From assembly GCA_902362865.1 (NCBI GenBank), contig CABIYE010000011.1:1-64000 (forward strand): DNA of 64,000 nucleotides. Reading direction: 5' to 3'. The DNA comes from Clostridiaceae bacterium (GTDB lineage: Bacteria > Bacillota > Clostridia > Lachnospirales > Lachnospiraceae). How positions within the stretch are numbered: the first letter of the stretch is position 1; each line of letters begins with the position of its first letter. This document shows, piece by piece, positions 12,821 to 55,385 of this stretch. The translations under genes and the position numbers were made by a program. A model generated the notes under the pieces. That model was not told the DNA's origin and searched no databases. It saw only the letters and a list, made by a program, of their open reading frames with translations.

Positions 12821-13592
12821 TCTCTTCCCCTTCCGGCTCCTGCGTCTTCTTCATGCCTGTAATCTTGCTGGCGCCGTCCTTGTAATGTTCCGAAGTAATC
12901 TCCTGCGTCTCTCCTGCAGGGATTTCTCCCAGCGAAATCCTATATGCAATTCCCCCCGGATAGGCATAGCCGCCCAGCCAGTTCTTATAAATGATCTGCA
13001 CACCGTTTACAGTATTCTCTCCCTGATTGGTTACATAGATTTTCCCATCCTTCTCCTCTGTATCCAGAACAGAAAGCTCTGTATCCGTTTCAAGGAAACC
13101 GAAATTATCTCCGACTACTTTATATTCCGCATCCTTCCGGAACGTCTTTCCTTCCAGTTCCTGAGCCAGAACCGTTCCGCCGGAGGGAAGCGCTGACACC
13201 TGGAAATGATACGTCTCTCCCTTTTCATCTTCAATCCAAAGCTGCATGACTTCCAGCGTGTCTTCTGCTATATTTGTCAAAATAAGGCTGAACACATCTT
13301 CCTTCTCCTGATCCCCGCCATCCTCATAAAACACACCGGCATAGCTTCCGGCATATTCAAGCAGAACTTCCGGATTACTGAGGTCGCCTTCCAATACTTT
13401 TTCCGCTTCCTCCCCTTCAAATCCCGGGAACAGATCTACGGTCATCGTTACCTCCGGTTTATCTGAAGATCCTGCCGTCTCCGTATCCTTCCTTCCGGCC
13501 ATCTTCCACACAATCACAAGTACTGCCACACAGATAACACTTCCTGCAAGAACCAGAATCTTTTTTCGTCTTCTATTCTTTTCTGTCTTCAA
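12801..13592 (-). CDS. Membrane-anchored hypothetical protein of the peptide cluster
   Basis: 263 residues from a TTG start preceded by GGAGAGG. A basic N terminus (KNRRRKK) and one membrane helix (about 11-32) put the rest outside the cell. The outer part is acidic with beta-rich segments (VFSLILTNIAEDTLEVMQLWIEDEKGETYHF; YVTNQGENTVNGVQIIYKNW), resembling two FxLyD/Ig-like beta sandwiches. I do not recognise a named family. It lies between the HprK-like gene and the radical SAM gene, overlapping the latter, so it probably serves the same pathway, for instance as a surface receptor or assembly factor. That is inference. Confidence 0.75.
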   Translation of the reverse strand: MKTEKNRRRKKILVLAGSVICVAVLVIVWKMAGRKDTETAGSSDKPEVTMTVDLFPGFEGEEAEKVLEGDLSNPEVLLEYAGSYAGVFYEDGGDQEKEDVFSLILTNIAEDTLEVMQLWIEDEKGETYHFQVSALPSGGTVLAQELEGKTFRKDAEYKVVGDNFGFLETDTELSVLDTEEKDGKIYVTNQGENTVNGVQIIYKNWLGGYAYPGGIAYRISLGEIPAGETQEITSEHYKDGASKITGMKKTQEPEGEENGESTD

Positions 13593-13637
13593 TGTTCCTC
13601 TCCTTCTCTTTCGATTTCCTTGCGCGCATTTTCCCGG

Positions 13638-14513
13638 TTATACTCCATCCTGCCGGAATCTTCTGCGCAAATCCTCCACTGCACTGGCGTCTTTCCTGCA
13701 TTGAAAGGTATATACCGGGATCTTCTCTGCAGCCGAAAATAAAAGTTCCGCCTGCTTTTTTTTCATCTTCTCATCCATATAGGCAAATGTACTTTCCCGC
13801 ATAAGCGGCAGAATACATCTGCTTTCCTTCAATTTCTGAATCTGATTCCTTTCTCCCTGGCTCAGAATAACAATCGCCCGCACCGGCGACTGATAATTCC
13901 GGTAGACGCCGGAAGAACCGGCGTAAGGAGAGCCTGCCGCAAAGATTCTTCCCTCCTTCTCATAAAGAACCGCCCGGTCGCCATTCATGGTAACGCCGCC
14001 GCCATACTGTTCCCACAATTGCGCCTGGGTAGATTTGCCGATTCCGGAAGGGCCTGAGAAAAGAACCGCGCCTTCCTCCGTCTCCACATAGGCGGCATGA
14101 AGCAGGATTCTTCCCCTGGTGTAAAACATTTCCTCAAACGCCATGTAAAAGCTCCAGTTCTTCGCTCTCTTAAAATCCTCCTGCACTTCTTTCGGAAGAT
14201 AGAGCCGGTATTGGTCTGCACATTCCCGCCTCCGTACCAAAGTTACCTCTCTTTCTTTATGAACCTTACTGTAGGGAAAGGTACGGTAACGGTACTGTCC
14301 GTCTTCTGTAATCCGGCAGAATTCCCCTGCATATAACTCCCGCTCTCCCCTCCTGTCACGAGAAGGCCTGCCTGTAAGAACCTCATACAGAATCTCCGGT
14401 GTTCTCGGCTCTTCCAAAAGGAATGCCCTGTATCTTTCTTCTAACTCCAACGGCATCCCTGTTATCCAGCGAAATGAAATTCCCGCCACAGAAAAATCAT
14501 ACTGGTATTTCAT
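13638..14513 (-). CDS. HPr kinase-like P-loop protein (peptide-cluster kinase)
   Basis: 291 residues. A Walker A loop, FSGPSGIGKSTQAQLW (about 160-175), is followed by GDRAVLYEKEGRIFAAGSPYAGSSG, the order seen in the C-terminal domain of HPr kinase/phosphorylase. The HprK N-terminal domain is missing, and the first 150 residues are of a kind seen in HprK-like proteins of RiPP (ribosomal peptide) clusters, some of which phosphorylate the peptide. The start at 14513 has a strong GGAGGGAAGAGG site. It follows the small peptide gene across a hairpin and precedes the membrane protein by 45 bases. A role in sugar control through HPr is unlikely because of this setting. Confidence 0.82.
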   Translation of the reverse strand: MKYQYDFSVAGISFRWITGMPLELEERYRAFLLEEPRTPEILYEVLTGRPSRDRRGERELYAGEFCRITEDGQYRYRTFPYSKVHKEREVTLVRRRECADQYRLYLPKEVQEDFKRAKNWSFYMAFEEMFYTRGRILLHAAYVETEEGAVLFSGPSGIGKSTQAQLWEQYGGGVTMNGDRAVLYEKEGRIFAAGSPYAGSSGVYRNYQSPVRAIVILSQGERNQIQKLKESRCILPLMRESTFAYMDEKMKKKQAELLFSAAEKIPVYTFQCRKDASAVEDLRRRFRQDGV

Positions 14514-14844: not shown

Positions 14845-17800
14845 TCACTCCTCCTCATCTGTCAGCAGACTCTGCCGCTCCTGGAACCGCTGAATGATTG
14901 CTGCGCACATTGCACGGTTGGTATCTCCCTGCGGATTGATCATACCATTATCACCTTGGATCAGTTTTTCAGAAACTGCCCACGCAACACCCTTGGCGGC
15001 AAATGCACTTACCTGCCTGCTGTCTTCAAAGCCTGACATATCAGAGGAAGCTTCCATACTCTCTCCCTTATACTGTGCATACCGATACATCATAACTGCA
15101 ATCTGTTCACGGGTAATCGGGTCTGTCGGTCCAAAACAGCCCGCCCGGTCACCGGAAGTATAACCTGTGATTACACCGATATCCTTCTGGCTTGCCCATA
15201 TAACTGCATCTGTATAGAACTGATTATCCGCAACATCCTTAAAGGTCTCCTTGTACGCTACCTTCGGACTGCCTGCCATACGGTACAAAATCACTGCAAA
15301 CTGTGCTCTGCAGATGGTCTGATCCGGTCCGAAATACGTCTTATCCAGACCTGTCATAATTCCCTTCTTATACACATAGCGGACATAGGATTCATACCAG
15401 CTTCCGGCCGGGACATCCACAAAGGGAAGCGCCTTACTATCATCATCCGGTCTGATATCCGGCTTCGTATCCGGCTCAGCGTCCGGCTTCGTATCCGGCG
15501 TCGTGTCTGAATCTGCGTCCGGCTTCGTATCCGGCGTCGTGTCCGAATCAACGTCCGGCTTTGTATCCGGCGTCGTGTCCGGAGCAACATCCGGCTCCTC
15601 CGCTTTACTTACGAACATCGCCTTCATAAGACTATAGGTATCTGCCGCAAGCGTTGATGGCTCGTTCGGATTCTCTGTAAGATCAGAACCGGCAACCGGT
15701 GTCAACGTATAGCCTTTTACTTTCAGATTTGTAAGCGAAACCATACTCTCTCCCGTAGATGCCAGGATTACCAGATAGGATCCATCCGCATACCGCTTAC
15801 AATTTGCCAGATCAATCTTATAATACATCGGTGTATAAGTCGTAAGTGTAATCGTCTGTGCCTTCTCATTATCAGCTGTAAGAACTTTTATTTCTGCAGA
15901 TGATTTCTGATCATCCGCCACCTTCTTCGCCTCGATCTGTAAGGTTCTGTCTGCTTCTGGAATTGCACTGCCTGCTTCCGGAACCGCACGGAATGCGATT
16001 GCATTACCTGCGGCAAGATATACCTCATTGTTCGGTCCGCGCTTCAGTATTTTCTCTAAACTGTCAATCGCATCAATTGGCACGGTCGTATCCGGATTCT
16101 CAACCTGTGCATTTCCTGCATGGTACATCACCACTCCAAGTTCCGGATCCACTGCCACAAGAGAAACAGCAGAGCCACTTGTAGTCGTTGTTGTTCCTGT
16201 CGTACTGTCATCCCCGGAACTATCCATGTTCTTTAAAATTGCGTCCAGATTCTCAAACTTAACAGACCCAAGAAGGAGGTCTCTCACTTCTTTAATATCG
16301 GCCTTATATTCGGAGCCCAGATAATATTGGCTTACAGCTGTGTTCTTTCCGTCCTTTGTATTTGCAGGATCGTAAATACGGATTGCATCTATATATACAT
16401 AGCTGTTGGTAACTGTCTCATCCGCCCTGTTCTTCGTCCTCATTGCCTTAATCGTCACATCATACTGGCCGTATGCAAGATCCTTGATGCTTACCATCGG
16501 AAGCTGATACAACTTACCATTTGCGTAAGAAGTATCTACAATTGTGCTCTTCTCAAGCTTGCCCGGAACACCTTCGGTATCCGAATGTTCTCTGACTATT
16601 ACCGCAAGGCCTGCCGTATCTATCGTGCTTCTGCCTATCAGGTCAAATCCTCTTCCCCGGAAGGTAAATTCCATCGTTCCTCTATTGGCGGCATTAGACG
16701 CATCAAGCCTTGTGCTACCTTCGGCGCTGTCCAAAGTATTTTCTCTGCTCTCATAAAGAGTCTTTATTTCATCCGCCTCAAGCGCCCGGTCGTAGATACG
16801 CACATCGCGGACGTCACCTGCAAAATAGTCATCACCATTTCCTCTATAGGGAGATGTTCCAATATATCCCACCAGGTCTCTCTGCAAATCTGCAAGACTA
16901 ATTCCTGTTGCCGGATTCTCAGCTACTTTCTCTCCATTACAGTAAAGAGTCATTTTATTCGCTCCAAGAACCACTGTATACAAGGCAAGTTCACCACGCT
17001 TGGCAGCAGCGGTTATGGTTTGTGGGTTGTTATGCCAGGAACCAAGTGTAATAACTGAACTTATATTGCTGCTAGAATCATCTGGCTTCAGCGACCAATA
17101 GTGTGTCGGCCAGTTCCCATCATTGCTTCCGATATACATTGCAATATAATTTCTTGTAACATCTGACTGATTCTTCATCCACACAGACACTGTCATATCC
17201 GTCTTATCATTCGTAAGCCCTGTCGGAAGCTCTACGTAAGCAGCATCGCTGCCTGAAGCTCCTCCCGGTAATGTCAGTGTATCGCCGCTTATCTTCGCTC
17301 CCGACTGCCTGATATATCCATTGTTACCTTTTCCGGAAATATCAGCCACCGGTGTATTTGCTGCAACCGTTCCGTCCGCATTCGCCGTCACAGTTGAGAA
17401 ATCATAATGTACAAGCAAGTTCTCCTCAACAACCGAAGCATTCGTATTCGTGCTGTATACGGCATCATATCCATATACACCCGTCTGATCATTCGACTGC
17501 ATAAGCTTACCGCCTGCTGCCTTCTGGTTATCTCCTGTCACTGTAATCGCCTGAAAATCATCCTCATAATATACTACCTCTGCCGGAACCATCGTTATCG
17601 TTCCAGCCATACGTACGCCGTCTGCAGAAGTTGCTTCCGGGGCGTCCATATCAGTATCCAATGACTTCTTTACATCCACACGATAATTGTACACATCCGC
17701 ATTCTCCATAAATGCGGTCGGCGTATAGATCAGCTTTGTGCCATCCAACTGAAGCGTTGAAGTATCTGTATTTACCATTGTAGTATTTTTTCCATACGCA

Positions 17801-18390
17801 TCCCAGGCGTCAGCCTGTGCATTGCCCTGGCTGATACCCATAAACTCATTCGCCGCTGTTACACCACTAATGCTCAGCCCGGTATCTCCGACAATTTCAT
17901 ATTTTCCTGCCGTGCTTGTCTCACGGATACCAACACTGCTTCCCTTCGCATTCAGATCTACCGGAAGGCCATAATCCAGTACATATGCATGGTTCTTCGG
18001 TTCATACACATGCACGGTCGCTCTGGCCGGGTTACCATTGACATCTACGTAATCAATGACTACATTTTCCTGCAGCTCGCCTTTAAATTTGATTCCACTA
18101 TTGGCGCCTGAAGCATCCTTCTCAATATCTGCAGTACAATAAACAATAGGAGAGTTGGTAATTTCCTGTATTCCTGGAATCGGAAGGAACGTCTCATGAT
18201 CCTTCCATGCATAAAACTCGCTGCTGCTCTTTGTCATATTTGAAATAACATCAACAGTCCCTGGTCTTATATCTCCATCAACTGTGCCGCTTATATGATC
18301 ATTTCCTACCGTCTGGTATTCTTTCTCATAAGTTCCCGCCGCAAGATCTTCCCGGAACGTATAAGCTGTCAACGCCAGCGGTTGTATCAT
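14845..18390 (-). pseudogene. C-terminal part of the giant SLH surface protein (frame 3 of 3)
   Basis: 1181 codons open, beginning inside the gene without a signal peptide or ribosome binding site. It continues the protein begun at 22763 after a +1 frameshift near 18380. Content: a module also found in the GH43 protein (HAYVLDYGL near 165), a LamG domain (about 329-548) inserted into a second shared module, an Asp-Thr-Pro-Lys linker (about 930-985) and three SLH domains (about 988-1181) that would bind wall polysaccharide. If the frameshift is real and not bypassed, this anchor region is not made and the upstream part would be secreted but not attached. The three frames joined give 2638 residues. 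Confidence 0.8.
15461..15592 (-). repeat. 36-bp in-frame tandem repeats (SLH linker)
   Basis: One 24-base and three 36-base units (15461-15484, 15485-15520, 15521-15556, 15557-15592) of GGCTTCGTATCCGGCGTCGT type encode the DTTPDTKPDxDS linker ahead of the SLH domains. Unit changes would keep the frame. Confidence 0.8.
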
Positions 18391-21300
18391 CTCCCTCGTA
18401 AACGGTATAATCTCCTACATAGACGAATGCCTCGCTTCCGGAACCAAAGAGATTGGACAGCGTCAGTTGGAACTTAAAGGTATCTTCACTTTGTTCATCC
18501 CCATACATCTCTTTTTTTATCGTAACAGCATTCGTCTTTACCGTATTAACATACGCTGCGGTTAAGTTGACAATTTCCACTCCGTTTTCACTCAGCGATA
18601 CACTACCGTCTTTATCATACAGTGCAAACTGCCCTTCTGTGTTACCGTCATACGTTGATTTTTCGTCGTCAATAACGTACCCTTCACTGCTTCCAAGCAC
18701 ATTTTTATGTGAATCATACAAATTCCAACTGGTGGCATATTTCTCCGAATCCGCTGTCTGGCTTACCGCAAATAATGTTCCTGCTTCATCCAAAAACCCT
18801 GTTGGATTATCTTCTGTAGCCACTCTCTGAACCAGAAGAATGGAATCTTCTCCTTTCACCGTTATATGCCCCTCTTTGAGCGTGTCTGTGGAATAACGGG
18901 TCCCGTCATTGTATGCAACCTCTTCCCCATCTACCGGCTGAAGCCCTTTGCCACTTTCCTTATAATCAGAGGAAACGTCCAGTCCAAAGCTTTCCTGCTT
19001 GATAATCTCTGCCATCCGATCTTTCAGAGCGTCGTTGACGCCATCCGTATTTACCGTATTTGTAATGGCAATGGTATTTTCCTGCGGGAAGTTAAAACGA
19101 ATCTTTAAGTTCCCTTCCAGCTTTCCTCTTTCCGTATAATAGATTACCGCTTTATGCTCGACAGACGGGTCAGAGAAATCCAGCCCAAGTTCTTCGAAAG
19201 TCTTCGTTACTGTACTGCCTGCCGGTCCTGCAGCATCATTTCTTCTTGTCACTGCTTCGTCATAAGTCTCAATAGTTCGTGCATAAGTAGTTACGGTCTG
19301 TTCTGCAAAATCAACCACACCTTCACATTCTCCGTGAGAACCGCCGATGTCAAGCGCTAGCTTCCCGTCGATATAGAGGAAGAAATCATCATCCCCATTG
19401 AATTCAAACCTGATAGGAACACGCTCTCCTGAACCATTTTTACTTGAAAGCTTTCCATCATATGTAGAACGGAAATTAAAAGCCATCTTTGCCGCGAATC
19501 CGCAATTCGCCACATCCTTGTCATCGCCATTTTGATTGAATGGAAGGAAGCTTATTCCGTCATGGCCGACATAGCCGTTTCTTGCATCATAACACCGGTT
19601 ATCGGGAACCCATGTAACCGTATTATTAGGATCTTCTGAAATATGAATGGTTTCTTTTCCTGCATCACCGCTCTGGAACTCATAATAGTCAATCCCGGTT
19701 GCTTCATCTGTCACCGTTTTAAATGGCATCAGCACATTCTCATAAATGTTCATATAGACGCTTCCCTGCTCATCTGCCGCAAGTGCATCACTAACATCAT
19801 TAAAATACGGCGTCAAAGCGTCATTCATAGTCAGCGTATCATTCTCTCCAAGATTCGGATCCATACTTCCCTGCGCCGCCAGCTGGGTATACTGGTGTGC
19901 ATTATATCCCCATATTGATCCGTAGAAGTTTTCCCCATATTCTTTAAAGGAAACGCCTTCGCCCGGTTCGTACTGGTACTCCATCAGATGGGAATTATTA
20001 TTCGGGTCTTCGTCATAATCTCTGTACGCTTCATCCAGGCTGTAGAAATCTCCCCAGTAAATCGGATGGAAATTATAAGATTTCAGATCTCCTGTAAGCG
20101 TAAGTTTCTCTTTCCAATACTTGTCAACCGCCTTATTGAACTGTACAAATTCAGACTCGCTGCTGACAATCTCTCCCGCTTCATTCCGTTTCATAACATA
20201 ACTGTTAGAATTGTAATTTCCTTTTCCCTCTCGCTCCGGGTCTGACAGATAATCATACCACGTAGATTTTACCGTGAACATCTGCTTCCCGTTTTCATCG
20301 AGAACTTCCTTCTGTTGAGACTCGACAACATTGTATACGGAAATATCCACGGTCTGAGACTTCCCGCCATACGTAATGGTAACCGTCTGATTTCCAAGTT
20401 CTGACTTGTAGCCCGTCACTTCATAATCTTCCGGCGCAAGAGTCACGCTAGAACCATTCGCCAAAGTAACTTTCACATCCAGATACTCCTGCAGATGCCC
20501 GGCAAGTACCTTGATTCTGCCATCAGGAGCAACTTCTGCCCCTTCTTTCGGAGATACCGTCAACGCATTGACCTCCGGGTGAATTGCCTTGTCATAAATC
20601 TGAAAATTATCGATATATCCGCCGTAATATTCATAGATTCCGCCGGGATGTCCCCAGTTTGCTTTGCCAATCTGCGCAATCCCGCCGTTTTCTCCAATAA
20701 TATCCTGCAGCGGGTAATAACTTCTTATCTCATCCTTCTTCTCGCCATTTACATATAAAGTCGTCTTTTCGCTGCTGATCACAAGATCAATGTGCCTCCA
20801 CGAAGACGCAAGCCCGGCCGTATCTACATCGATCGAAGGCAGCCGGAATCCTGACGCTGCATTATCCCAGTAATGCACATACATATGCCTGCCGGCTTCC
20901 TGGATACCAATATATTTTTCTTTCAGATACTCCTGTGAAACAGTGTTTTCCGCCGCATAAAAAGACCACTTCCCGGTGGAAAGATCCACATAGGGTTTAC
21001 TGTCATAGGAAATCGTAATCTCTTTCTGCCCTTTTAACGGAGAAGCCCCATTCTGCAAAAGATTCAGATAGGTTCTGTTCTTTTCTGCAAGAAACAGCTC
21101 CGTACTGCCGTCACCGTCCGTATCATAGACAAGGAAAGGCCTTGCAACCGCTCCCGCCCCTGCAAATCCTGTCTCTTCATCATCAAAAGTGAAGTCTGCA
21201 ATTTTCTTGGCAGCCGTTGCTGCCTCTTTATTTCCATATACTGCCGACACCTCGTCCGCTGTCAGCGCACCGTCATATATACGGAAATTATCCAGCATAC

Positions 21301-22450
21301 CATTATAGAATTCACCGTCTCCCCAGTTGGCGCGGCCAATCTGAAAGATCCCGCCGGATTCGCCAAGGATATCGGCCAATGTCGCTGCATTCTCTGCTGC
21401 TTCGCTGGCTTTCACCAATTCGCCGTCAATATAAAGCGAAGTACAATCCGCATCATACACCACCGCTACATTTTTCCATTCTCCCATAACCGGAGCCTGA
21501 TTGGTACGCACATCAAGATCTGCCTTTCCGGAGTTCTGATCTGCCTGACGGATCACATCTGTTGAGCCACTATTCTCATCCACAGCTATATAATTCGGAT
21601 TTCTCCAATCTTGAGCATCGATATCTTTCGCAGCGTAGAATGGCCAGTCATTTGTATAACTGTTGCCTTCAAAATAACTGTCGAATACGATTGTTGCCGT
21701 CGTAAGTCCATGAAGAACCGGCGTCCCATCTGCCTTCGTCACATACAGTGTCTGCTCTTTTCCGCGAAGGTCAAGAGCCTTACCATCTGTTTCCCTGATC
21801 TGCATGATTCCGTCGCTGTCGCCTGTTACAGAAGCCTTGGCAGCTCCGCCTGAGAAGCTGTCTCCTTCCATGCTTTCGAAATCAAAATCAGCGAGAAGCG
21901 GGATTTCACTTACATCCGCTGTACCTGCAACCTGCTCCGCTGTGAGTGCGCCATCGTACACCTGGAAGTTATCAATATAACCATTATAGAATTCTCCTTC
22001 ACCCCAGTTCGCCTTTCCGATCCAAAAGACGCTGTTCTCACCCAAAATATCAGACAATGGTGTAGCGCCTGTATTTTCTGTTGTCGCAATCTGTTCACCA
22101 TCCTGATACAAGGTAATGGTTGTTGCATCCACGACAACTGCTACCTTTTTCCACTGGTTCGAAGCAAGCGCTTTACCGCTATCCGGAAGCAGCAGCATAG
22201 AACCCGGATCTGTTCCCAGGAGGCCATCGCCGGTCTGGCGTCCGGCTCCATACCTTTCTACTCTGCTCACTCCCTCTATAATGCCAAGATAGTTTAAGTT
22301 CCCTTCCTTTACCGTACCTTTATCCCCCGTCTGTATTGGGCGTATTCGCATCACTGTCTGCACAGAATGCCCATGACTGTCCAGTTCCCAGGTAATAGCT
22401 GTCATACATAATCGTGACGGCATCTTTTCCGGTAAGCAGCGGGGTTCCAT
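18326..22450 (-). pseudogene. Central part of the giant surface protein: LamG repeats and fibro-slime domain (frame 2 of 3)
   Basis: 1374 codons open; true coding starts after the first frameshift near 22324, since the first 40 or so residues here are out-of-frame. Three LamG-like glycan-binding modules follow, each ending in a YNGxxDNFxxYDGALTADEV-type motif. Next come an Ig-like bacterial module (about 690-770) and a fibro-slime/PA14-type domain (about 780-1200, with FNGDDDFFLYIDGKLALDIGG near 1016). A pilin-like beta domain ends the frame (TFKFQLTLSNLF). The frame closes at 18326 shortly after leaving the real reading frame. There is no enzyme motif; the protein looks like an adhesin or glycan binder. 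It is the middle of one gene, not an independent one. Confidence 0.8.
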
Positions 22451-22763
22451 CTGCCTTCGTCACTGTCAAATACTTATCCTCGGTCAGATCCAGATAATGA
22501 TCCGTTATTCTGTCTGTCAGCGTATAGCCGCCGTCCGTCATTGCCGCAGCTTCTGTGCCATAGGAATCCGTAAATTTTAAACCGTTCAGCGCCGTGCCCG
22601 TCACGCTGTTAAAATCCAGCGAAACCATCGGATTCTCTGTTGTGCCATCCGGCCCTTTGGGCGTCTGCGCCGCCGCCGGAAGCTGAATACTGGTTGAAAA
22701 AAGTGCCGTCGCCAACAATGCGGCGCCTATTCTCCGTCCTGCCTTCCTTTTTCTCTCCCTCAC
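22320..22763 (-). pseudogene. N-terminal part of the giant surface protein: signal peptide and first LamG (frame 1 of 3)
   Basis: 147 residues from a GTG at 22763 with AAAGGAGAG at good spacing; an upstream ATG-led extension has no such site. It carries a signal peptide (VRERKRKAGRRIG, then a hydrophobic stretch to AAAQ) and the first half of a LamG domain. The frame ends at a TAA right after a run of five G (22324-22328); four G would carry the frame on into the central part. As written, only a short secreted fragment is made. It is the first gene of the operon that includes the small peptide and radical SAM genes, so early stop could also lower their coupled translation. Confidence 0.8.
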
Positions 22764-22819
22764 TTTAATCTCTCCTTTACTTTGCTTTAACATTTGTATA
22801 TTTATTTTATTGTATCTTT

Positions 22820-22850
22820 TCTTCAGCAAAAAAGCTACATACTTTAGTAT
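22820..22850 (-). terminator. Weak terminator after the LCP gene
   Basis: On the minus strand CATACT pairs with AGTATG and is followed by TAGCTTTTTT in the 110-base gap before the giant SLH gene. It would only partly separate the polysaccharide genes from the peptide/SLH genes. Confidence 0.4.
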
Positions 22851-22873
22851 GCGATTTTTCACTGTTTTTTCTA

Positions 22874-24602: not shown

Positions 24603-25763
24603 TTAAAAATCCATCGCCATCTGTCCGGCTTCATCCTCTGACAGCTCTGTTATCTTTGTATCCATTACCCGGTACACTCTCCTGCACATACTCAGCACAC
24701 TCGGCCGATGCGTCGTCACAATACAGGTTCTGCCGGAATCCCGACTGATAAGGTTCTTCAGTACCCTCCGTTCTGTCGCCACGTCCAGCGCTGAAGTTGC
24801 TTCATCTAACAACAGAACCGGACATTCCCGCAGCACGGCTCTTGCTATGGCAATCCGCTGCGCCTGTCCCTCCGAAAGACCTCTGCCTTTTTCCCCCACG
24901 CTGCTGTGGATGCCCTTCGGCAGTTTCTCCACAAATTCCCATGCACATGCAGTTTTCAGAGCTTCTATGATCTCCCCGTCCGTCGCATCCTCTCTCACCA
25001 TTCGCATATTTTCAGCAATGGTTCCTGTCAGAATCGTATTTCCCTGTGGCACGTAGGCAAAAAGTTGTCTTGTATGCACACCCGCCTCTATCTGCCGCTC
25101 TCCGGACTTTATAAGAAAGACCTTTCCCGCTTCCGGGCGGATTAATCCAAGAATCAGACGAACCATAGTCGTTTTTCCCTCTCCGGAAGGCCCCACCAAC
25201 GCTACGATTTCTCCCGGGCAGGCTCTGAATTGTGACTGTCCAATGACCTTCTTGCCCTGGACATAAGAGAATTCTACATTCTCCATTCGTACCTCTAGTC
25301 CGCCTGCCGTCCACAGGGGAACCTTCCATTCTCCCTCGCCGCACATTTCTTCCCATTCATGCCCCTTCGCATCTTCTTCCCTGGGAAGCTCCATAATCTC
25401 CCGGATGCGCCGGGCCGACACGGAACTGCTTAAAAAGCCCGGTATCAGTGACGCCATCTGATGAAATGCCGCCGATAGGCTGCTTCTTTGCTGCAAGAAC
25501 AGAGTCATCGTCCCATAAGTAATATCCCGCGTCCACAGACGGAACAGGCAGTAACCGAATGCCACAAACTGTACCAGCATCCCTAACACCGACAAAGCCG
25601 CATTGGCCTTAATCGTAAAGAGGTTATATTTCAGGCTGATTTCTTTGAATTTTTCCTGCCATCCATGCATTTTTCCGTTATATCTGTCCGTAATTCCAAA
25701 GGATTTAATCGTATCCAGATTGTAGAAAGCTTCCGCCTCAAAAGTCATAAGATGGCTGCTCAT
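24603..25763 (-). pseudogene. ABC exporter, C-terminal part with ATPase domain (frame 2 of 2)
   Basis: 386 codons. The ATG at 25763 is internal: the sequence continues the last membrane helices of the exporter (residues 1-110) and then the ATPase. Walker A is LVGPSGEGKTTM, the Q-loop is YVPQGN, the signature is GLSEGQAQR, and Walker B is CPVLLLDEATSALD, followed by the switch His in TTHRP. The frame meets the N-terminal part at an ATGA overlap. Adding one base near 25768 (AAG-TCC to AAG-GTC-C) joins both into one 605-residue exporter reading SGK-VREMSSHL. No peptidase C39 domain is present. In this locus it could export polysaccharide units or the small peptide. As written it is probably inactive. 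Confidence 0.82.
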
Positions 25764-26419
25764 CTCCCGGACTTCCCGCTGTAATCTCTCTGTTTCTTAA
25801 TCAACAAACGGGAAGAAGCCAGCAGAAACGGAGCGCTTCCCATGGCGATGACTGCCATCACCCAGTCATAATGCAGAATCACAAAAAAAGTAGCCACAAA
25901 CTTATAGATTGACAGAATAACTGTCGGGAGCCAGCTAATTGCATTACCGCTGACGGTCTTAATATCGCCGTTAAATCGATTCAGTAAATCTCCGTTGGTG
26001 AAATGGTTCAACTCCAGCCAGTCCGTGTCCATAATATGCCCGAAAACATCTGCCTGAATATCGTTGTTAATCAAGATACTCAGCTTTGTAGATACCCGGC
26101 TAATTAAACTGTCAAACAAGAGACTCAGCATGGAGCTGCCCGCCATAATGACAGCCAGTACAGCAAGCTTGCTTGTCTGATAACCGGTAATAATATCAAT
26201 CAGATATTTTCCCGCCACACTTCCTGCAAGCCCCAGAGTAGTACTGAGTATTCCCAAAAGCACATAGACGGCTATCGCGCCTTTGTACCGGATACTATAA
26301 TGGAAGCTCCATTTCCAGTCCTCTATGATTTCTGAAAATGTACCATTTTTCCAGTGGGAAATCAGCATAGCCAGAGAACTGCCTTCCGGATTCTTCTGTT
26401 CTTTCATTCTTGTCCGCAT
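25760..26419 (-). pseudogene. ABC exporter, N-terminal membrane part (frame 1 of 2)
   Basis: 219 codons with four clear membrane helices (AIAVYVLLGILSTTLGLAG, LAVLAVIMAGSSMLSLLF, ILSIYKFVATFFVIL, WVMAVIAMGSAPFLLASS) and the coupling-helix region DWLELNHFTNGDLLNRFNGD, as in homodimeric exporters. It stops at TGA after QRDYSGKSGR, where an intact exporter would go on into the fifth helix. The frame needs one extra base to continue into the ATPase frame. Since the break splits the membrane domain, two separate functional chains are unlikely. It starts 15 bases after the second Wzz/BY-kinase gene. Confidence 0.8.
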
Positions 26420-26434: not shown

Positions 26435-27814
26435 CTAATCATCATTCAGAACACAGCCGATAATATGTACATTGTGCTCCGCAAATTGTTCCAGACAATT
26501 CAGGATGAAATCAGCCCTTGCGAAATCCTTCTTTACCACCAGTACGATTCCATCCACATACTGCGCCAGGATTCCTGCATCAGCAAGAAGTCCGATGGGC
26601 GCGCTGTCAAGAATTACATACTCCGCTTTATCTTTCAGAGAATCAATCAGCTCCTTCATCTTTGGGTTGTCCAGAAGCTCTGTACTGTCCGCGTCCGCAT
26701 TTCCTCCGGAAACATACAGGAAATTCTCCAAATCCGAAAATCCCATCTTCTCCCCGTACTGTATGCACTCTTCTAAATCCAGTTCTCCCGTTAAATACTC
26801 TGCCAATCCCTTTTCTTTGCCGGCCTTTAATATCTCACTGTCTGAGGGATTTCTCAGATCGCAGTCAATCAGCGCTGTTTTCTTATGATTCTGCGCCAGG
26901 GACAAAGCCAGGTTGACCGCTGTCGTACTCTTCCCCTCATCTGCCAGCGCACTGGTAATCAGAATACTCTTCAGCCCATTTTCGTGGGCGCTGTATTCGA
27001 TCCTATTGCGGATAAGCCGGAAAGCCTCCACAAATTCCTGACTGATTTTCTTGTCCATGATATTAGACGGCTGTTTCGTTCTCCTGCTCCTCGTTTTGCG
27101 GTGAAGCCTGGGAACCGTTCCAATACATTTCATATTGATCCGCCTCATACAGTCCTCTTCTCTCCGAACCGTCCTGTTAGCAAATGCCATAAATGCAGCC
27201 AGCAAAAGTCCCGCGCCAATCCCGGCGATTCCGCCTCTGGCTGCGTTTCTTTTCACATCCTTCGGTTTGTCCGCATGAGCCGGAATCCCCGTCTCATCCA
27301 GCATCTCCATATTCACTTTTCCCACAATCAATTCTGACACAGACGGGTAATTATTTACCACCGCTCTCAGAGTTCGATAGGCGCGCTCCGCATCCGTATC
27401 TGTCACAGAAAGGGTCAAAAGATTCGTATTCTCCACCACCGACGCCTTAATCCTTCCCGGCACTGCATCCACGGAAAGCTCTTTCGCCACCTTCCGCTGC
27501 AGCACACCGCTGGTAAGAATATGCGGAAACGTAGTCGCCATCTGCTCTGCCGCACTGTTGTCGAAGAAACTGCTGTTGGTATATGTCCCGTCCTCCTGCT
27601 CTTCGTAGATATTAATGGTAAATGTAGCGGAGGCCGTATATCTTGGCTGATATGTCATATTCACCCACAGGCCGGATACCAGAGCGCCAATTATTCCCAG
27701 TACGAGAACCATCTTCCACGTCCTTTTTAACATCTTAAGATAATCCGCTGCAAAGGCAGTCAGATCAATCATCTCTTCTTCCTTTACTTTGTGTACTTCA
27801 TTTTGTCCGCCCAT
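26435..27814 (-). CDS. Wzz/BY-kinase fusion protein without tyrosine tail
   Basis: 459 residues from the ATG at 27814 (GAGGGAG upstream). The longer frame reading MATATVTAM is an out-of-frame echo of the upstream gene's repeats. N-terminal Wzz/CapA part: two membrane helices with an outer loop between (about 30-210). C-terminal BY-kinase: Walker A SALADEGKSTTAVNL, Walker A' ALIDCDLRN, Walker B YVILDSAPIG. The protein ends at CVLNDD, so the usual C-terminal tyrosine cluster is absent. It could act as co-polymerase or as partner that activates the tailed kinase encoded just upstream, with which it overlaps by 17 bases. Confidence 0.88.
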   Translation of the reverse strand: MGGQNEVHKVKEEEMIDLTAFAADYLKMLKRTWKMVLVLGIIGALVSGLWVNMTYQPRYTASATFTINIYEEQEDGTYTNSSFFDNSAAEQMATTFPHILTSGVLQRKVAKELSVDAVPGRIKASVVENTNLLTLSVTDTDAERAYRTLRAVVNNYPSVSELIVGKVNMEMLDETGIPAHADKPKDVKRNAARGGIAGIGAGLLLAAFMAFANRTVRREEDCMRRINMKCIGTVPRLHRKTRSRRTKQPSNIMDKKISQEFVEAFRLIRNRIEYSAHENGLKSILITSALADEGKSTTAVNLALSLAQNHKKTALIDCDLRNPSDSEILKAGKEKGLAEYLTGELDLEECIQYGEKMGFSDLENFLYVSGGNADADSTELLDNPKMKELIDSLKDKAEYVILDSAPIGLLADAGILAQYVDGIVLVVKKDFARADFILNCLEQFAEHNVHIIGCVLNDD

Positions 27815-29270
27815 ATCCCGACTCCCTCTTATCTGTCTCCCGGCGTGGAGAATCGTATTTCCCGTACCTGCCATACCCATAGCCATAGCCGTAACCGTAG
27901 CCGTAGCCATAACCAGAAACCAGCGAGCCTTTGCCGCTCATCACATCGTTAAACACACAGCCCAACAGGCCTTTGCCATAATCATTTAACAGATCAATTG
28001 CATCGTTAATATATTTTACCTGCGTCCCGTTCTGCTTCACTACAAGCAGGGATGCATCCGCATATCCGGCAAGGACTTCCGTGTCGGAGCGCTTGTATAC
28101 CGGCGGTGCGTCTATAATAATCAAATCCATCTTCCGGCGCATCTGTGCGACAAATTCTTCCATTCTCCCGGAAGCCAGCAGCTCCGTCGCATGAACTGCC
28201 TTTGTCTGGTTCACCATTACGCTGTAACCGTACTTCTCCAAATAGCTGACCGCTTCTTCCGGATCGCCGCCTTCTGCCAGACATCCGCCCCAGTCAGCAG
28301 CCTGCTTTGGATTTAACGGCAGGCGCTTCAGCAGCTCACAATTCTTGATATCCCCCTCGATCAGAAGAATCTTCCGGGACTGCTTTGCCATCAAATACGC
28401 CAGATTCACTGCCACAGTCGTCTTGCCTTCTCCCGGCGCAGCGCTGGTAACCAGAATGACCTTGACATTCTCATACCGCACCTGATACAGAAGCTTCATC
28501 CGCATCTTCTTCATTGCCTCGGTATAGCCAAAGCTTACGGACGGCTCTGTAATCACTATTTTCTTTTTCTTCCTCTTCAGAAAATCCCTGATATTCCGAT
28601 ATTTTCTCTCATGGCACAGCACACCGAAAAGCGTGGTGTCCAGTTTCTCCGCAGCCTCTTTTTCATTCTTGACCGTGTCCTTCAGACAAGAAAGCATCGC
28701 CAGCAAAATCAGCATGACAGCCGTGCCAATGAGAAATGCTTTCTGCATAATCTCCTTCCCACGGAACACCTGATCCGGTGCCGCCGGATATCCGGGCTTT
28801 TCAAATATTTCCATTACCACTTCGCCCAGCACATTCCTGCCTACCTCTGGGTAATATTCCAGCATCCCCCGCAGAAGCTTAAGCGCAGTCTCCGGACTGT
28901 CCGCGGTCACAGACACCGATAACAGATTCGTCTCCGGCACAACCTTAATTTTCACCTTTCCGTCAAAACTGTCCATTCCCAGCCCGTCGCTTACCATCTT
29001 CTTCAATACGTTACTGTCCATGACAGACCGGAAAACCTCTGTCATCTTCTGCGTTTTCGTCAGATTTGCATATGCCCCCGTGCTGCCGTTCCGGGAAGAA
29101 ACTACGAAAGTAGTTCTTGAAGTATAGGTCGGCTGATACAAAAGCCTGCCCCCTATATACGCAAGAAATGCCGCCGATATTCCGATAGCCACAGCCACCC
29201 ACAAATCATGGAATACATCTCTGATTATACAATAAATATCAATCTCCTGTTGTCTCGTCTCTCTCTCCAA
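27798..29270 (-). CDS. Wzz/BY-kinase fusion with Gly-Tyr repeat tail
   Basis: 490 residues, TTG start at 29270 after a GGGG-containing site. The Wzz/CapA part has membrane helices at about 22-44 and 178-197. The kinase part has Walker A SAAPGEGKTTVAVNL, Walker A' ILLIEGDIKN and Walker B LIIIDAPPV. The tail (about 450-490) is unusual: seven Gly-Tyr pairs in a row, then RYGKY and a final GYG, giving about ten tyrosines for autophosphorylation. These kinases set chain length and export of surface polysaccharide together with the CpsB phosphatase. A tandem hexanucleotide repeat encodes the tail. The gene follows the Ig-like membrane protein by 20 bases and overlaps the second fusion gene. Confidence 0.9.
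   Translation of the reverse strand: MERETRQQEIDIYCIIRDVFHDLWVAVAIGISAAFLAYIGGRLLYQPTYTSRTTFVVSSRNGSTGAYANLTKTQKMTEVFRSVMDSNVLKKMVSDGLGMDSFDGKVKIKVVPETNLLSVSVTADSPETALKLLRGMLEYYPEVGRNVLGEVVMEIFEKPGYPAAPDQVFRGKEIMQKAFLIGTAVMLILLAMLSCLKDTVKNEKEAAEKLDTTLFGVLCHERKYRNIRDFLKRKKKKIVITEPSVSFGYTEAMKKMRMKLLYQVRYENVKVILVTSAAPGEGKTTVAVNLAYLMAKQSRKILLIEGDIKNCELLKRLPLNPKQAADWGGCLAEGGDPEEAVSYLEKYGYSVMVNQTKAVHATELLASGRMEEFVAQMRRKMDLIIIDAPPVYKRSDTEVLAGYADASLLVVKQNGTQVKYINDAIDLLNDYGKGLLGCVFNDVMSGKGSLVSGYGYGYGYGYGYGYGRYGKYDSPRRETDKRESGYGRTK
27871..27912 (-). repeat. Hexanucleotide tandem repeat encoding (Gly-Tyr)7
   Basis: Seven consecutive six-base units of the form CC(A/G)TA(A/C/G) on the plus strand. Gain or loss of a unit would add or remove one Gly-Tyr pair in frame. 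Confidence 0.8.
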
Positions 29271-29290: not shown

Positions 29291-30088
29291 TTAGTTCACG
29301 ATTACGATCAGCCTGTTTTTTCCCATGTCTTTTTCGCCATATACAACGTAATCCACATAGTATACTCCCGGCGTGCTCACAACTACATTGGATTCGATCT
29401 GAAGCGTCCCTTCCTGATCTGCGCTGTCAAAATACTGTGCCGGATCAAAGCCCGTATTTGCTCCAATATAGATCAGGTATTCCTTAAGCTTCACCTGTAT
29501 TTTTTCCGCCGACGCATTATATACCTCCAGCGGCAGCCTGAGTTCTGCAGTCCTGCCCGCGCTGTCCGTGACCCGGAGATCTACATACCGTATCCCCACC
29601 GTCTTTTCGTCAGAAGCATTCTTCATCGTATATTTAATCTGTCCGCTCAGATCTCCGTCAAGTAAGCTTTCTGCCTCCACCCTGTCCAGCACATTTAGCG
29701 TATCTCCTGCCTTGTACCGCAGAGAATCCTTAAGCTTAAACCAGGGTCCCTGATAATCGATATATTTCAGCGTGCGCTCAGCTCTTCCCACATTGCCCTT
29801 CTCATCAATCGCAGCATAGGTTATGGTTCGTTCATTCTCCTCTGTAATCTCTGATATCTGCTCCACTACCAGCGTACCGCTTACGTCGCCTGACAGATTA
29901 TCCTCTGCTTTCACATCCGCAAGCAGTTTCTCTTCTCCATCTTCTACATGAAGCAGCAATTCCCCTTCCGGAAATGTAATCTCTGGCGGGACTCGATCCT
30001 GCCCCGTCTTCTCATATACCCGAAAAGCCACAAACATTACTGTTGACAGAAGCAGCACTACAATACTTATGATTCTGATCTTCTTCAT
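29291..30088 (-). CDS. Membrane-anchored protein with Ig-like domains
   Basis: 265 residues from the ATG at 30088, better spaced from GGGAG than the GTG at 30100. One N-terminal membrane helix (IISIVVLLLSTVMFVAF) anchors an extracellular part with three beta-sandwich repeats of the kind seen in DUF5011/cadherin-like domains: VPPEITFPEGE..DNLSGDVSG, YIDYQGPWFKL..SLLDGDLSG, and a last repeat ending GVYYVDYVVYGEKDMGKNRLIVIV. The x-DGDLSG-type motifs often bind calcium. It sits between the regulator and the first Wzz/BY-kinase, so it may help polysaccharide assembly on the cell surface. The specific role is unknown. Confidence 0.8.
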   Translation of the reverse strand: MKKIRIISIVVLLLSTVMFVAFRVYEKTGQDRVPPEITFPEGELLLHVEDGEEKLLADVKAEDNLSGDVSGTLVVEQISEITEENERTITYAAIDEKGNVGRAERTLKYIDYQGPWFKLKDSLRYKAGDTLNVLDRVEAESLLDGDLSGQIKYTMKNASDEKTVGIRYVDLRVTDSAGRTAELRLPLEVYNASAEKIQVKLKEYLIYIGANTGFDPAQYFDSADQEGTLQIESNVVVSTPGVYYVDYVVYGEKDMGKNRLIVIVN

Positions 30089-30108
30089 TCGGCATCTCAC
30101 TCCCTTTT

Positions 30109-31674
30109 CTACTGCAAAAGTCCCTTCTCTCTTCCCTTCACAAGCGCCTGGACTCTGCTGTTCACTCCCAGTTTTTTATACAGACTGTACAAATGTCCCT
30201 TTACAGTCGGTAATTTCAGATTCAGCTCCCGGCACATCTGTGCGTTCGTCATCCCAAGGCTGATATTCTGAAGCATAATCATTTCCATCATCGTAAGCTT
30301 TTCGTCCGTCTCCTGCGGCAATTCATGATAATATTTCCGGCTTTTACGGGCAAGACGTCTGAACGTTTCTATATAATCTGCCTCCGGCATCCGAAGGACA
30401 TTTCCATAATTATATTTCTTTTTCTGCCGCCACCCTTCCTGAAAATTTGTACTCATCCATGCCGCATACTCATCCAGCGTCTCACAGCCGCAGATGCCAT
30501 ATGTTGTATAAAATCTCACGTACCGAAAATTCCCCGTTATTACAAAGGATTCTATCACATACCGCAGCGACTGGTTTTTCTTCCCTTCCTCCCTGTTTAC
30601 CAACGCCAATAAAAACAAAGCTTCCGCCTGAAAGCGCGTACTATGATAGTTCTGGAAACAGGGCAGCAGCCTTTGCAGAATCGGTTCTGCCTTTTCATAC
30701 TGATTCAAATGTACATAACATTTCGCCAAATACCACAATACAAGGTAATTTTCTTCGTTAATCTCAAGCACGGACTCACTGCGCATGTCATAGATCCATC
30801 TTAACACTTGCTCTCGTCCTTCTCCCTGTAGGGAATATACACTCATAACTGCTTCCATACTCTTCCTGCAAAGCGGATGATCTTCCCATCGCAGAATTTT
30901 CTTTTGCTGCTCAATAGCATCTGCCGTTCTCTCACCCGAATAACTTTCCCGAAGCATATATAAAAGAGACAGCTTTGCCAAGTCCTTCTGCCAGTTTTCT
31001 CCGGTTCGGACTGTAAAAAGATATCTCCAGTTTTCATCCTCAATATCATCCTGCCGGTTTATTTCAAAATAATACTCCATCTGCGCCAAAAGATAAAACG
31101 CCCATTCTTCCTCACCCAGGTATTCCTTCCAAATCCGGGCGCGTCTTCTTTCCTCTTTTTTCAGTACGCAAAATAAACCGGACAAATCTCTGATTCCACA
31201 CAAGAAAGAACAGGAATTGCCAATCATATAGTAGATTCTCGCCCGTCCGTTCCTCTTGCCATAACTTTCCAGCTGTTCCAGCCAGTCTTCCAGAGTTTCT
31301 TCCGGATCCATATATAATAAATTCAAATAAACTTCTTCCGCTTTCTCATCGGTTCCTTCCGCCGCACGCCGCACTGCTCTGCGGAATCCTTTCATGTCCC
31401 GCCGGGCAATACAGTATACTGCCTGCAGGTAACAACACGCCGACGACAAGTCTTTCCACTCCATCACTTCCCCATACGATACCCCCAGGGAAGGAACCAG
31501 AGTATAATTTTGAAGCATACACCGTCTGTATTTCTCTCCATTTCCAGACTGCTTCAGACATTCCAACGCTTCTCTCACATAGCCATGAGAACCGTACCAT
31601 TCTCCCAGACATTCTAATAGGAATTTGCTTTTACCCCCCCCGAGCCGAATCCGGAAGAGCATTGCTGAACGCAC
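30109..31674 (-). pseudogene. MalT/LAL-type LuxR regulator, C-terminal part with HTH (frame 2 of 2)
   Basis: 521 codons from an internal ATG. It is a long alpha-helical TPR-like region, as in MalT-type regulators, followed by a LuxR helix-turn-helix at about 455-510 (LTMMEMIMLQNISLGMTNAQ, then KLPTVKGHLYSLYKKLGV). The real coding frame enters at the G8 tract (31634-31641); upstream residues in this frame are not homologous. With nine G the two frames join into a protein of 809 residues, a normal length for this family. Such regulators activate nearby operons on sensing a ligand. It lies 20 bases ahead of the first polysaccharide gene and is the probable master switch of the locus. Confidence 0.82.
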
Positions 31675-32537
31675 TGCCTAAAAACCGGCAGTATTTTCCA
31701 CCGTTCTTTTCCTGTATCACACAGCAGAAATCCTTTTCGTCCTAATACTCTTAAGGATTCTGCAACTCCCTCAAGTTTCCACACATCCCGGCAAAGTTCC
31801 TCGTTAATCCACGGACATTGTGCCGCTCCGGTTAATATCGCTTTCTCCTTCGAAGAAAGCGTATCCCACATCTCCTGCCGGATATATCTATCTATCTCAT
31901 ACCGCTGCCTTAACTGCTCCACTGTCACATCTGCTGCATTCTCACCTTTTGAACCCAAAGACAGACGAATCATCATATCTACACAACCTGCCCATCCTCC
32001 GCTAACCTTATAGATTTCTTCCGCATCCAGCGAACTTCCCATATACTCTGCAAATCTACGTATCTCACCTATGGTAAACAAAAAGGATTCCGGCGGCAGC
32101 AGCTCCATTCTGCGGCTCCACAGAAGTTCCAAAAAGCTCTCTTCCATCTCTTCCCTGCTAATTACAACCATACGCCATGTGCGCGGAAGTCTGCCAATCA
32201 ATTCAACCACATGCTCCCGGATCTGTTCCGGAAGTTCGCATGGTAAATTCTCCAATATCACCCAGATATTCTTCTCATCCATACGCTCTTCCAATTCCTT
32301 AAACTTCTCCGCACATCGCTTTGGATCCTTCACTTCTTCCTCCATCCGGAACAGGACAGGCACCACTTCCGTCCGTCTTGCCAACAGCATTTTCACAGCC
32401 GTCGTCTTTCCAGAGGCAGCTATGCCCTCCAGATAAACAGAAGGGAACCTTTCCAGTTCCCTTTCCAGCACTCCAGACTTATCTACATAATACTGTTTTT
32501 GCGATAAAGAACTATAATAGGTATCACTGTCTGCCAT
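31614..32537 (-). pseudogene. MalT/LAL-type LuxR regulator, N-terminal ATPase part (frame 1 of 2)
   Basis: 307 residues, ATG start at 32537 overlapping the PqqD-like gene by 14 bases. It is the STAND-type ATPase of MalT-like regulators: Walker A YLEGIAASGKTTAVKML (about 33-49), Walker B-like WVILENLP, then WRMVVISRE and the winged-helix segment SGGWAGCVDMMIRLSL. The frame runs into the G8 tract, then ends after GGVKANSY. Without the C-terminal half it lacks the DNA-binding domain. Depending on the G count in each cell, it would be full length (active) or truncated (inactive), which makes this a candidate on/off switch. Confidence 0.82.
31634..31641 (-). repeat. Poly-G tract (G8) at the regulator frame junction
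   Basis: Eight C on the plus strand, read as eight G in the gene. Upstream codons stay in the ATPase frame (TTC-GGC-TCG-GGG); downstream codons of the TPR/HTH part need one more G, giving GGG-GGT-AAA-AGC. It is the longest run of G or C that I see in the window. Confidence 0.85.
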
Positions 32538-32802
32538 CTTCCGTCAGTATGCCTCCCTCAATCAGAGCATTTAAAAACTCCTGAATATCCTCTTTTGCAA
32601 CTTCTTCTTCCACATCATATTCTTCCAGGACACCTGCAACCATTTCCTCTATCGTAACATCATTCTGAAGCATATTCCATAGAAAAACACCTACTTCATT
32701 CACCGTAATCAAACCATGAAATTCCAGCGACGTCTCTCCGGTTGGTATGATAATATAATCACCGGCAATCTCTCTGAGCATGAACTCTTTCCCTACCCTC
32801 AT
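32524..32802 (-). CDS. PqqD-family peptide-recognition protein (RRE)
   Basis: 92 residues from the ATG at 32802; an ATG three codons upstream is too close to the GAAAGGG site. The sequence has the PqqD fold pattern: FMLREIAGDYIIIPTGE (beta hairpin), ITVNEVGVFLWNML (helix), then helices ending in IQEFLNALIEGGIL. Such small proteins bind the leader of a ribosomal peptide and present it to a radical SAM enzyme or kinase. No modifying enzyme is adjacent, but a radical SAM/SPASM gene, an HprK-like gene and a candidate precursor are downstream on the same strand. It overlaps the regulator gene by 14 bases and is first in the locus after a promoter. Confidence 0.88.
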   Translation of the reverse strand: MRVGKEFMLREIAGDYIIIPTGETSLEFHGLITVNEVGVFLWNMLQNDVTIEEMVAGVLEEYDVEEEVAKEDIQEFLNALIEGGILTEDGRQ

Positions 32803-32844
32803 GAACTTCATCCCTTTCGTACTTTACCTCGACAAATTATCATT

Positions 32845-32909: not shown

Positions 32910-34013
32910 TTATTCACAATATTGCTTTAACTCATCAAGTCTGCGCCGGAACATTTCCCCTTCCTTTTCCATGCACATGTCCCGGAATATATTCATATCT
33001 ATCTTACTCTTCTCTCTGAGCCCAATGTGCTTTACCGCTTCAATTGCTGCTTCCCGCTGCGACAAATGTCGTGGCAGGACAGTCAGGCAATTAGCTCCAT
33101 CCAAATCATCATATTCTAAAAAACATCGATTAAAATCCATCAGCGGATACAGAGAAATACATTCATTATTACTATTGTCAACCAGGAATCCCCAATTTTC
33201 CGGATGACGGTCTGTATTCCCTGTCAGATAGTCCAGAATATTCATGCCATAATACGTAATCGGATCAATCTTTTTGCAGATATCAAGCGTATTCAAATCA
33301 TGATTACAGGCATAAATATCAAAAGCCATCTTTGACACCATTGAATATTTTTTTGATGTCACAATCCGACTTTCCGACACACACTCTCCATCATATAAAC
33401 ATTCCCGATACTTAACCTGCGGCACATCAAAGCACTGACAAACCATACTCGCCAAAATCTCTTTTTTTACCGCCTCTTTCTCTCCGTCTTTTAAAAGATA
33501 GAAACCATCTTCCTTCCGAATCCAGGCTTTGGGAAAACATCCCCTAGTCGACAAATCCGGTGCCAATTCCTGATTGGTAACCGTCATCTGCCTGCCTCTA
33601 AGAGATATTTCCACAAGAGCCTCATCCAAAGGATTATCATATAAATTCAATCTGGCAAAAGTAATCTCTTCTCCCACACTTCTCACCCAGTATACGTCTG
33701 TTAATGAGACACAATGATAAGACAATGCAATATCCGCTCTGTCTTTATCCGTAACTGCCTGAGTCACTCCAATACTATTTAGTATTTCTTTCGCATATTT
33801 TCTATCCAGTGAAAGCATTCTTGATGCACACCAATGATTAAAATTCAGAATATTATTAATCATTGTATCAATGTCCAAACTATCATCTTCTAAATACAGG
33901 TCATAGGGCATAAACTTTTCTTTAAGAATCGTCGCTTTTCCATTCGACGAAAGTTCCGCCACAACTTTATCCATATGCATAATCTGATAAATAACAAGAT
34001 CGCTCTTCTTCAT
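32910..34013 (-). CDS. HipA-like kinase-fold protein (orphan)
   Basis: 367 residues, ATG at 34013. The C-terminal half has the HipA/PI-kinase-like catalytic signature: NILDYLTGNTDRHPENWGFLVD (about 255-277; catalytic Asp in DRHPEN) and LYPLMDFNRC (metal-binding Asp). The N-terminal half is not like the usual HipA N domain, and no HipB-type antitoxin gene is adjacent, so a standard HipAB pair is not supported. It may be a stand-alone protein kinase. It lies between the surface locus and tuf, with its own flanking gaps. The substrate is unknown. Confidence 0.78.
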   Translation of the reverse strand: MKKSDLVIYQIMHMDKVVAELSSNGKATILKEKFMPYDLYLEDDSLDIDTMINNILNFNHWCASRMLSLDRKYAKEILNSIGVTQAVTDKDRADIALSYHCVSLTDVYWVRSVGEEITFARLNLYDNPLDEALVEISLRGRQMTVTNQELAPDLSTRGCFPKAWIRKEDGFYLLKDGEKEAVKKEILASMVCQCFDVPQVKYRECLYDGECVSESRIVTSKKYSMVSKMAFDIYACNHDLNTLDICKKIDPITYYGMNILDYLTGNTDRHPENWGFLVDNSNNECISLYPLMDFNRCFLEYDDLDGANCLTVLPRHLSQREAAIEAVKHIGLREKSKIDMNIFRDMCMEKEGEMFRRRLDELKQYCE

Positions 34014-53183: not shown

Positions 53184-53906
53184 CTATTCTTTCTCTTCCG
53201 GCTCGTACCGGTAATACTCTCCGTATCCTTTCTTACCATAACTGGCGCCGTAATATTTATTGTAATAGCCGCCCTGTTTTTTGCGGTCCACCTTATTCAG
53301 GACAACTCCCATAACGGTACATCCTGCATTCTCCAGCTTCTCTTTTACATTCTGCGCCAAACGGTATTTCGTCTTCGCAGATTCTACCACCATGATTGCA
53401 CCGTCGCAATTCTTCGCAATAATCGCAGCATCAATTACCATACCAAGCGGCGGAGAATCAATAATAATGTATTCATAAACTTTACGCAGTGACTCTATCA
53501 TACTGCGGAAACGCTTTGTAGACAACAGTTCCGTAGGATTCGGAACCAGTGGTCCGGCAAGCATTACATGCATCTTCGGCACATTTGTTTCTATCACAAT
53601 ATCCGCAAGAGAACACTGTCCGGACAGGAAATGGGACAATCCTTGTTCCACGCCCTGAATCTGAAGTCTGGAAACCATCACCGATTTGCGCATATCCGCA
53701 TCAATCAGAAGTACCGGTTTATTCAACTCTGCGAACGTATATGCAAGCTCAATCGCACTCCGGGTCTTTCCTTCTCCCGGCACGCAGCTCGTCACAAGGA
53801 TTACTCTTTTATCATCCCCACAAAATTGAACATTGGTACGCAATGTCTTCAACGCCTCTCTTGTTGCATATGCCATTTGTCGAATTTCAATCTTTGCCTT
53901 TTTCAT
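53184..53906 (-). CDS. CpsD/CapB-type BY-kinase
   Basis: 240 residues. Soluble bacterial tyrosine kinase: Walker A TSCVPGEGKTRSAIELAY (about 39-56), Walker A' VLLIDADMRKS, Walker B YIIIDSPPLG. The C-terminal tail is rich in tyrosine (GGYYNKYYGASYGKKGYGEYYRY), nine or so targets for autophosphorylation. It works with the separate CapA/Wzz membrane partner at 57103-57804, unlike the fused kinases at 26-29 kb. Start overlaps cpsB by 20 bases with GGAGAGGGTT upstream. Last gene of the second capsule-control run. Confidence 0.93.
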   Translation of the reverse strand: MKKAKIEIRQMAYATREALKTLRTNVQFCGDDKRVILVTSCVPGEGKTRSAIELAYTFAELNKPVLLIDADMRKSVMVSRLQIQGVEQGLSHFLSGQCSLADIVIETNVPKMHVMLAGPLVPNPTELLSTKRFRSMIESLRKVYEYIIIDSPPLGMVIDAAIIAKNCDGAIMVVESAKTKYRLAQNVKEKLENAGCTVMGVVLNKVDRKKQGGYYNKYYGASYGKKGYGEYYRYEPEEKE

Positions 53907-54618: not shown

Positions 54619-54636
54619 AATGAGGTTTCCTTCCAA

Positions 54637-54678: not shown

Positions 54679-54694
54679 TTCTAATCCACTCAGA

Positions 54695-55315: not shown

Positions 55316-55385
55316 TTTTATTTCCTCCCTACACATCATCATCACAAAATCATTTTTTGCTGTACTACTTTATAATATAACACTT

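Follow-up and report, generated by a model that had tools for sequence, protein, structure and literature searches.

Phase variation, in the strict definition, requires spontaneous switching in both directions, without selection and at a high rate; since such reversal is lacking for the poly-C tract in mga of group A Streptococcus, PMC11868660 does not count that tract as evolved phase variation. The mga tract changes from C8 to C7, with revertants recovered in mice, complementation demonstrated, and different tract lengths found in public genomes (PMC10330708, PMC11868660). The poly-C tract in bvgS of Bordetella pertussis alternates between C6 and C7, and its switching was shown experimentally (PMC1891110). 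G tracts in a pilus gene cluster of Bifidobacterium breve occurred as G11 and G12 in culture, with equivalents in other bifidobacteria (PMC9187656). PMC7098570 deals with a T tract between genes, and PMC3711429 surveys frame transitions in general. In the literature on phase variation and homopolymers, Lachnospiraceae, LuxR/MalT/LAL regulators, PqqD, and capsule, judged partly from listings, we found no such switch described in this group.

Within a 64-kb stretch of DNA (the whole stretch analysed, hereafter the window), we found a run of eight G at the frame break of a MalT-like regulator, on whose coding strand it lies. This run makes the regulator a likely candidate for a genetic on/off switch of a type already known, and a putative case of reversible phase variation. 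It is the sole G or C run longer than six in the window. The operon around it, from its first gene onward, reads as follows.

32524-32811, minus strand: PqqD-family gene, the operon's first gene, with a 14-base overlap with the start of the regulator
31614-32537, minus strand: first piece of the regulator, the ATPase/winged-helix part, 307 aa
31634-31641, minus strand: G8 tract, at the regulator's frame break
30109-31674, minus strand: second regulator piece, a 521-aa open frame with the TPR region and the C-terminal LuxR-type HTH
29291-30100, minus strand: gene with an Ig-like surface-protein domain, directly behind the regulator
27798-29270 and 26435-27910, minus strand: two adjacent Wzz/tyrosine-autokinase-type genes
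24603-26419, minus strand: ABC exporter, in two ORFs of 219 and 386 aa
22874-24596, minus strand: CpsB/CapC-type and LytR-CpsA-Psr-type genes
14845-22862, minus strand: giant laminin-G/SLH surface protein, out of frame

The two ORFs of the regulator overlap over 61 bases (31614-31674) with the G run inside the overlap, and the 307 aa of the first piece include a short out-of-frame tail that ends soon after the tract. The tract is so placed that a single step in its length opens or breaks the gene, as is expected of a phase-variable tract. From the letters of the sequence, an earlier note had proposed that the ATPase half and the TPR/HTH half of one regulator meet at these eight G, that nine G would give a continuous protein of 809 residues, the normal size of the family, and that the gene stands second in a surface locus. 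The ORFs and the position of the tract bear out the coordinates and lengths, the arithmetic is correct, a natural protein having just these 809 aa (P0001, described below), the median length of 807.5 aa among the 120 matches listed accords with the family size, and the PqqD gene does precede the regulator.

Considered on its own, the G8 run is unremarkable, because synonymous-codon shuffling of the coding sequence of the window (37 coding stretches, 54,348 bases, which comprise most, not all, of its genes) produced a G run of at least eight in 111 of 500 rounds. The same coding stretches, as observed, carry 17 G runs of five and a single run of eight, and words of seven G number 2 in the window against a shuffle mean of 8.57; a G6 at 12952-12957 lies in a gene outside the shuffled stretches. 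Retention of the tract beyond chance was accordingly not seen, either in the shuffles or in the 18 homologous genes of other species (L001-L013, L023-L026, and L033), none of which carries a G run longer than six, so that the tract is no old shared feature. All 18 of these regulators are uninterrupted. What is notable is the coincidence of a long run exactly on the frame break with another natural form that ends at the same codons.

The regulator is MalT-like (LAL/STAND-type). Regulators of this type have about 800-900 residues, with an N-terminal P-loop NTPase and winged helix, a TPR-type middle, and a C-terminal LuxR HTH. TPR matches and the C-terminal LuxR HTH were found in P0001, whereas the first piece alone matched no Pfam family, with no significant Pfam match. 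The N-terminal part was recognised from the regulator family profile, which matched MalT 8bob_C at an E-value of 1.7e-14 over profile positions 74-339, from Foldseek with the regulator model, and from a conserved G-x-AASGKTT stretch near residue 38-46, which we take to be the Walker A motif. In Foldseek 8bob was the top match and 1hz4 (MalT domain III) stood at rank 26; TM-scores being low (for 8bob, 0.20 when scaled to the query length), these structural matches are support at the level of the family only. An assignment to MalT proper was rejected, with 65.1 bits against the cut-off of 537 of NCBIfam NF003420. AlphaFold, run with 14 sequences, modelled P0001 at a mean pLDDT of 82.7; residues 296-301 make up one of four segments with pLDDT below 50 and lie between the helices 284-294 and 301-317. 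The tract therefore codes a poorly ordered inter-domain linker, and the broken allele parts the ATPase/winged-helix region from the TPR and DNA-binding regions.

Using the second regulator piece as a protein query, we obtained 210 matches, 120 of them listed, and among those listed only three were shorter than 700 aa. The best match, P0001 from Faecalimonas umbilicata, is intact with 809 aa and represents 65 member sequences; it is 99% identical to the second piece of the window, from which it differs at four residues, and its residues at the tract position are those of the in-frame reading. On account of this protein identity, the window organism is probably F. umbilicata or a very close relative. 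By taxonomy and database listing, F. umbilicata, a commensal, belongs to the Lachnospiraceae, and human faeces are the source of its type strain, JCM 30896. With the first piece as query, three proteins were obtained. One of these, P0121 (301 aa, 22 member sequences), is identical to residues 1-301 of P0001 and terminates inside the tract; a tract one base shorter, with the flanks of the window, would give a stop right after the second glycine, which is the very end of P0121.

Alternatively, P0121 could stem from contigs that stop within the tract. Each of the 243 proteins from our three database searches starts with M, suggesting that they are closed ORFs and not pieces cut off at contig edges. 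If truncations were uniform over the range of 169-537 aa spanned by the first-piece search, the chance of an end within three residues of the tract would be an estimated ∼3 in 369. At residues 53, 143, and 156 the haplotype of the window is unlike both P0001 and P0121, and hence truncation in the tract appears on two haplotypes. The forms seen are thus the intact P0001 and the truncated P0121, both at the protein level, and the eight G in the DNA of the window; for other strains the evidence consists throughout of clustered proteins. These data strongly suggest that a second form, truncated within the tract, occurs naturally, and since it accompanies an intact 809-aa form, the site appears to vary between strains. 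A protein of ∼510 aa from this species corresponding to the second piece only was not present among the 120 of 210 matches listed. We also noticed two relatives of the regulator pieces, P0123 (240 aa) and P0027 (549 aa), both with the longest contig 2970, which perhaps represent the regulator of one relative broken elsewhere.

We looked for related DNA in several genome sets. The second regulator piece matched 6 of 397 genomes of the family, the best at 48% identity, so no second copy from the species was recovered, and among the genomes of three genera the matches were 1 of 11, 0 of 4, and 0 of 1. A species probe from a gene whose position and size suggest rpoB gave no more than 83% identity across all genome sets scanned (250 of 397 genomes scored; 392; 1 and 3; 368, largely the same ones; and 195). 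Viral contigs held no relative of the window and no exact flank match, and plasmids matched at the EF-Tu region only (15 records).

A scan of genome contigs for the regulator gave 20 loci, 13 of which (L001-L013) carry a full regulator and were compared, while the remaining 7 match at the HTH end only and were left out of the comparison. The PqqD gene lies directly upstream of the regulator in 13 of the 13 loci; that PqqD serves the regulator as a peptide-binding partner is an idea we put forward on this arrangement. In L001, a Lachnospiraceae MAG, the whole gene order from PqqD to the giant SLH protein is as in the window and the regulator is intact. A scan for promoters and terminators was uninformative (17 promoter-like sites vs a shuffle mean of 18.7; 14 terminator-like sites vs 8.4).

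Several neighbouring genes deserve mention in their own right. At 11708-14513 lie a radical SAM gene, an HprK-like gene, and a 263-aa gene, which together with PqqD resemble a SynChlorMet-type cassette; every NCBIfam score for these cassette genes was far below the cut-off. Just upstream of the operon, at 32910-34013, a 367-aa protein that we presume to be HipA-like shows a sub-threshold PI3/4-kinase match and partial matches to the PADLOC candidate family PDC-M03A. A second capsule-type set, with AAA, CpsB/CapC, LytR-CpsA-Psr, sortase, and Wzz matches, occupies 53184-57804, and Wadjet type II-like genes with strong PADLOC matches to JetD2, JetC2, and JetB2 occupy 57948-63982, the JetB2-matching gene being cut by the end of the window.

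With the L001 proteins as rulers, we compared nine genes of the operon and found three of them out of frame in the window, namely the regulator and two that the earlier note had not remarked on, those for the exporter and the giant SLH protein. The exporter is broken near 25.77 kb, at a place without a long run. In the giant SLH protein the break falls near 22.3 kb, at a G5; overlapping open frames point to a probable second break in the latter near 18.35 kb, again at a site without a long run. F. umbilicata has an intact exporter of 601 aa (P0125). A 386-aa form (P0124, 39 member sequences), one residue off the window, begins at the start of the window's second exporter ORF, on which ground the exporter break is probably natural and present in other assemblies too. 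The two exporter ORFs overlap as ATGA, an arrangement with which coupled translation is also possible. P0128 was rejected as evidence for the exporter break in another species, as 282 of its residues match the window before it diverges; it looks like a chimeric contig. P0127 was likewise discarded as evidence, being contained in the window's exporter ORF. The additional breaks are compatible both with locus decay in some lineages and with a switch, and they keep the assembly-error reading alive.

In our view the broken regulator is probably a real, mutation-prone on/off allele. The best explanation, to which we give reasonable though far from full credence, is a slippage-prone G run in the linker of the regulator encoded by the second gene of this capsule/S-layer-type operon, with the sequenced strain carrying the broken allele. 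An unbroken G run in the linker would gain or lose bases by slipped-strand mispairing at replication; in-frame lengths would yield the 809-residue regulator, and other lengths only the ATPase/winged-helix part, devoid of the TPR part and the DNA-binding domain. Such a truncated product would presumably not be a working regulator, and polarity might perhaps reduce expression of the downstream genes, which follow at close spacing; the sequenced strain would then represent the broken state. The occurrence of whole and truncated forms, the latter apparently on two haplotypes, fits a length change by slipped-strand mispairing. The earlier note had gone further and suggested that a G8/G9 change could turn a whole surface programme on and off. 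Of this, the intact 809-aa form and the 301-aa form ending in the tract support a site that is apparently variable between strains; that one step in the tract switches the whole programme is weakened, because the exporter and the giant SLH protein are out of frame too, and the state of the regulator alone therefore cannot set the whole programme here.

A stronger version, which we regard as doubtful, is that a reversible switch of multiple lengths, in the linker of a PqqD-coupled STAND regulator, is the master control of the whole capsule/S-layer operon in a human gut Lachnospiraceae, and that lineages remaining in the off state lose the exporter and the giant SLH protein by drift; if true, it would explain the extra frame breaks. 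Were such toggling of a MalT-like regulator of a surface operon to occur in a gut commensal Firmicute, it would be an instance of bet-hedging among gut microbes, with the caution that a deposited genome records such an operon in the state of one cell.

The main rival to the switch is one-way decay of the locus, that is, an ordinary indel at the most mutable spot of the regulator in an operon that some lineages are losing, with the tract as an accident. This would amount to a strain-level loss of the surface programme. We rate it as unlikely. The three of nine genes out of frame, together with the probable 18.35-kb break and the probable recurrence of the exporter break in other assemblies indicated by P0124, are what such decay would produce. 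The regulator break, however, sits in a long mononucleotide run, unlike the exporter and 18.35-kb breaks, and P0121 shares the position of its break with the window but not the haplotype; moreover, the identity of P0121 with the intact P0001 over 301 residues is that of a recent or recurrent change.

An assembly or sequencing error, with the true tract of the strain in frame, is improbable in our estimation, even though eight G are a difficult run, several frame breaks fall within 18 kb of one contig, and the nearest named strain is intact. Against an error stand long genes of the window that are unbroken (2191 aa at 5146-11721, 1208 and 1295 aa at 41.4-48.9 kb, and 1392 aa at 59.3-63.4 kb), the exporter break probably shared with other assemblies through P0124, and the termination of P0121 at the same tract. 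Recoding, in which a ribosomal slip yields some full-length protein, or a split gene whose pieces work as separate chains, is very improbable: the broken allele does present two in-frame GGG codons after a G, in phase for a minus-one slip into the second frame and thus, by the heptamer rule of programmed minus-one ribosomal frameshifting, a slippery heptamer on the reading of the sequence, but programmed frameshifting was rejected, as RNA folds in three stretches at and behind the tract were no better than shuffles (z of -0.50, -0.93, and 0.48) and leave no stimulatory structure, the run is absent from the 18 homologues, whose genes are uninterrupted, and P0001 has no break to bridge.

Returning to the slippage-prone tract that we favour, its closest parallels are the systems introduced at the outset. 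With mga it shares a run of eight G/C within the coding sequence of a surface-protein regulator, where one step truncates or shifts the product (PMC10330708); it differs in the family of the regulator, and the data on reversal and complementation belong to mga, whereas the evidence from the window is that of sequence. The likeness to bvgS lies in a length change of a coding run that truncates a master regulator and shuts its programme off; bvgS, in contrast, is a sensor kinase of a pathogen with experimentally demonstrated switching (PMC1891110). B. breve offers a gut commensal with an intragenic G tract in genes for a surface structure, the deposited sequence of which consists of two ORFs that are fused at another tract length (PMC9187656); its tracts are longer and lie in a pilus gene cluster, whereas that of the window lies in a regulator and is unshared with the other species compared. 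To MalT itself the regulator is linked by the family profile match to 8bob_C and by the TPR region with the C-terminal LuxR HTH, and it is set apart by a score below the MalT cut-off and by its place in a surface operon. The regulator tract switches compared here, bvgS and mga, come from pathogens, while the tract of the window belongs to a commensal gut Firmicute.
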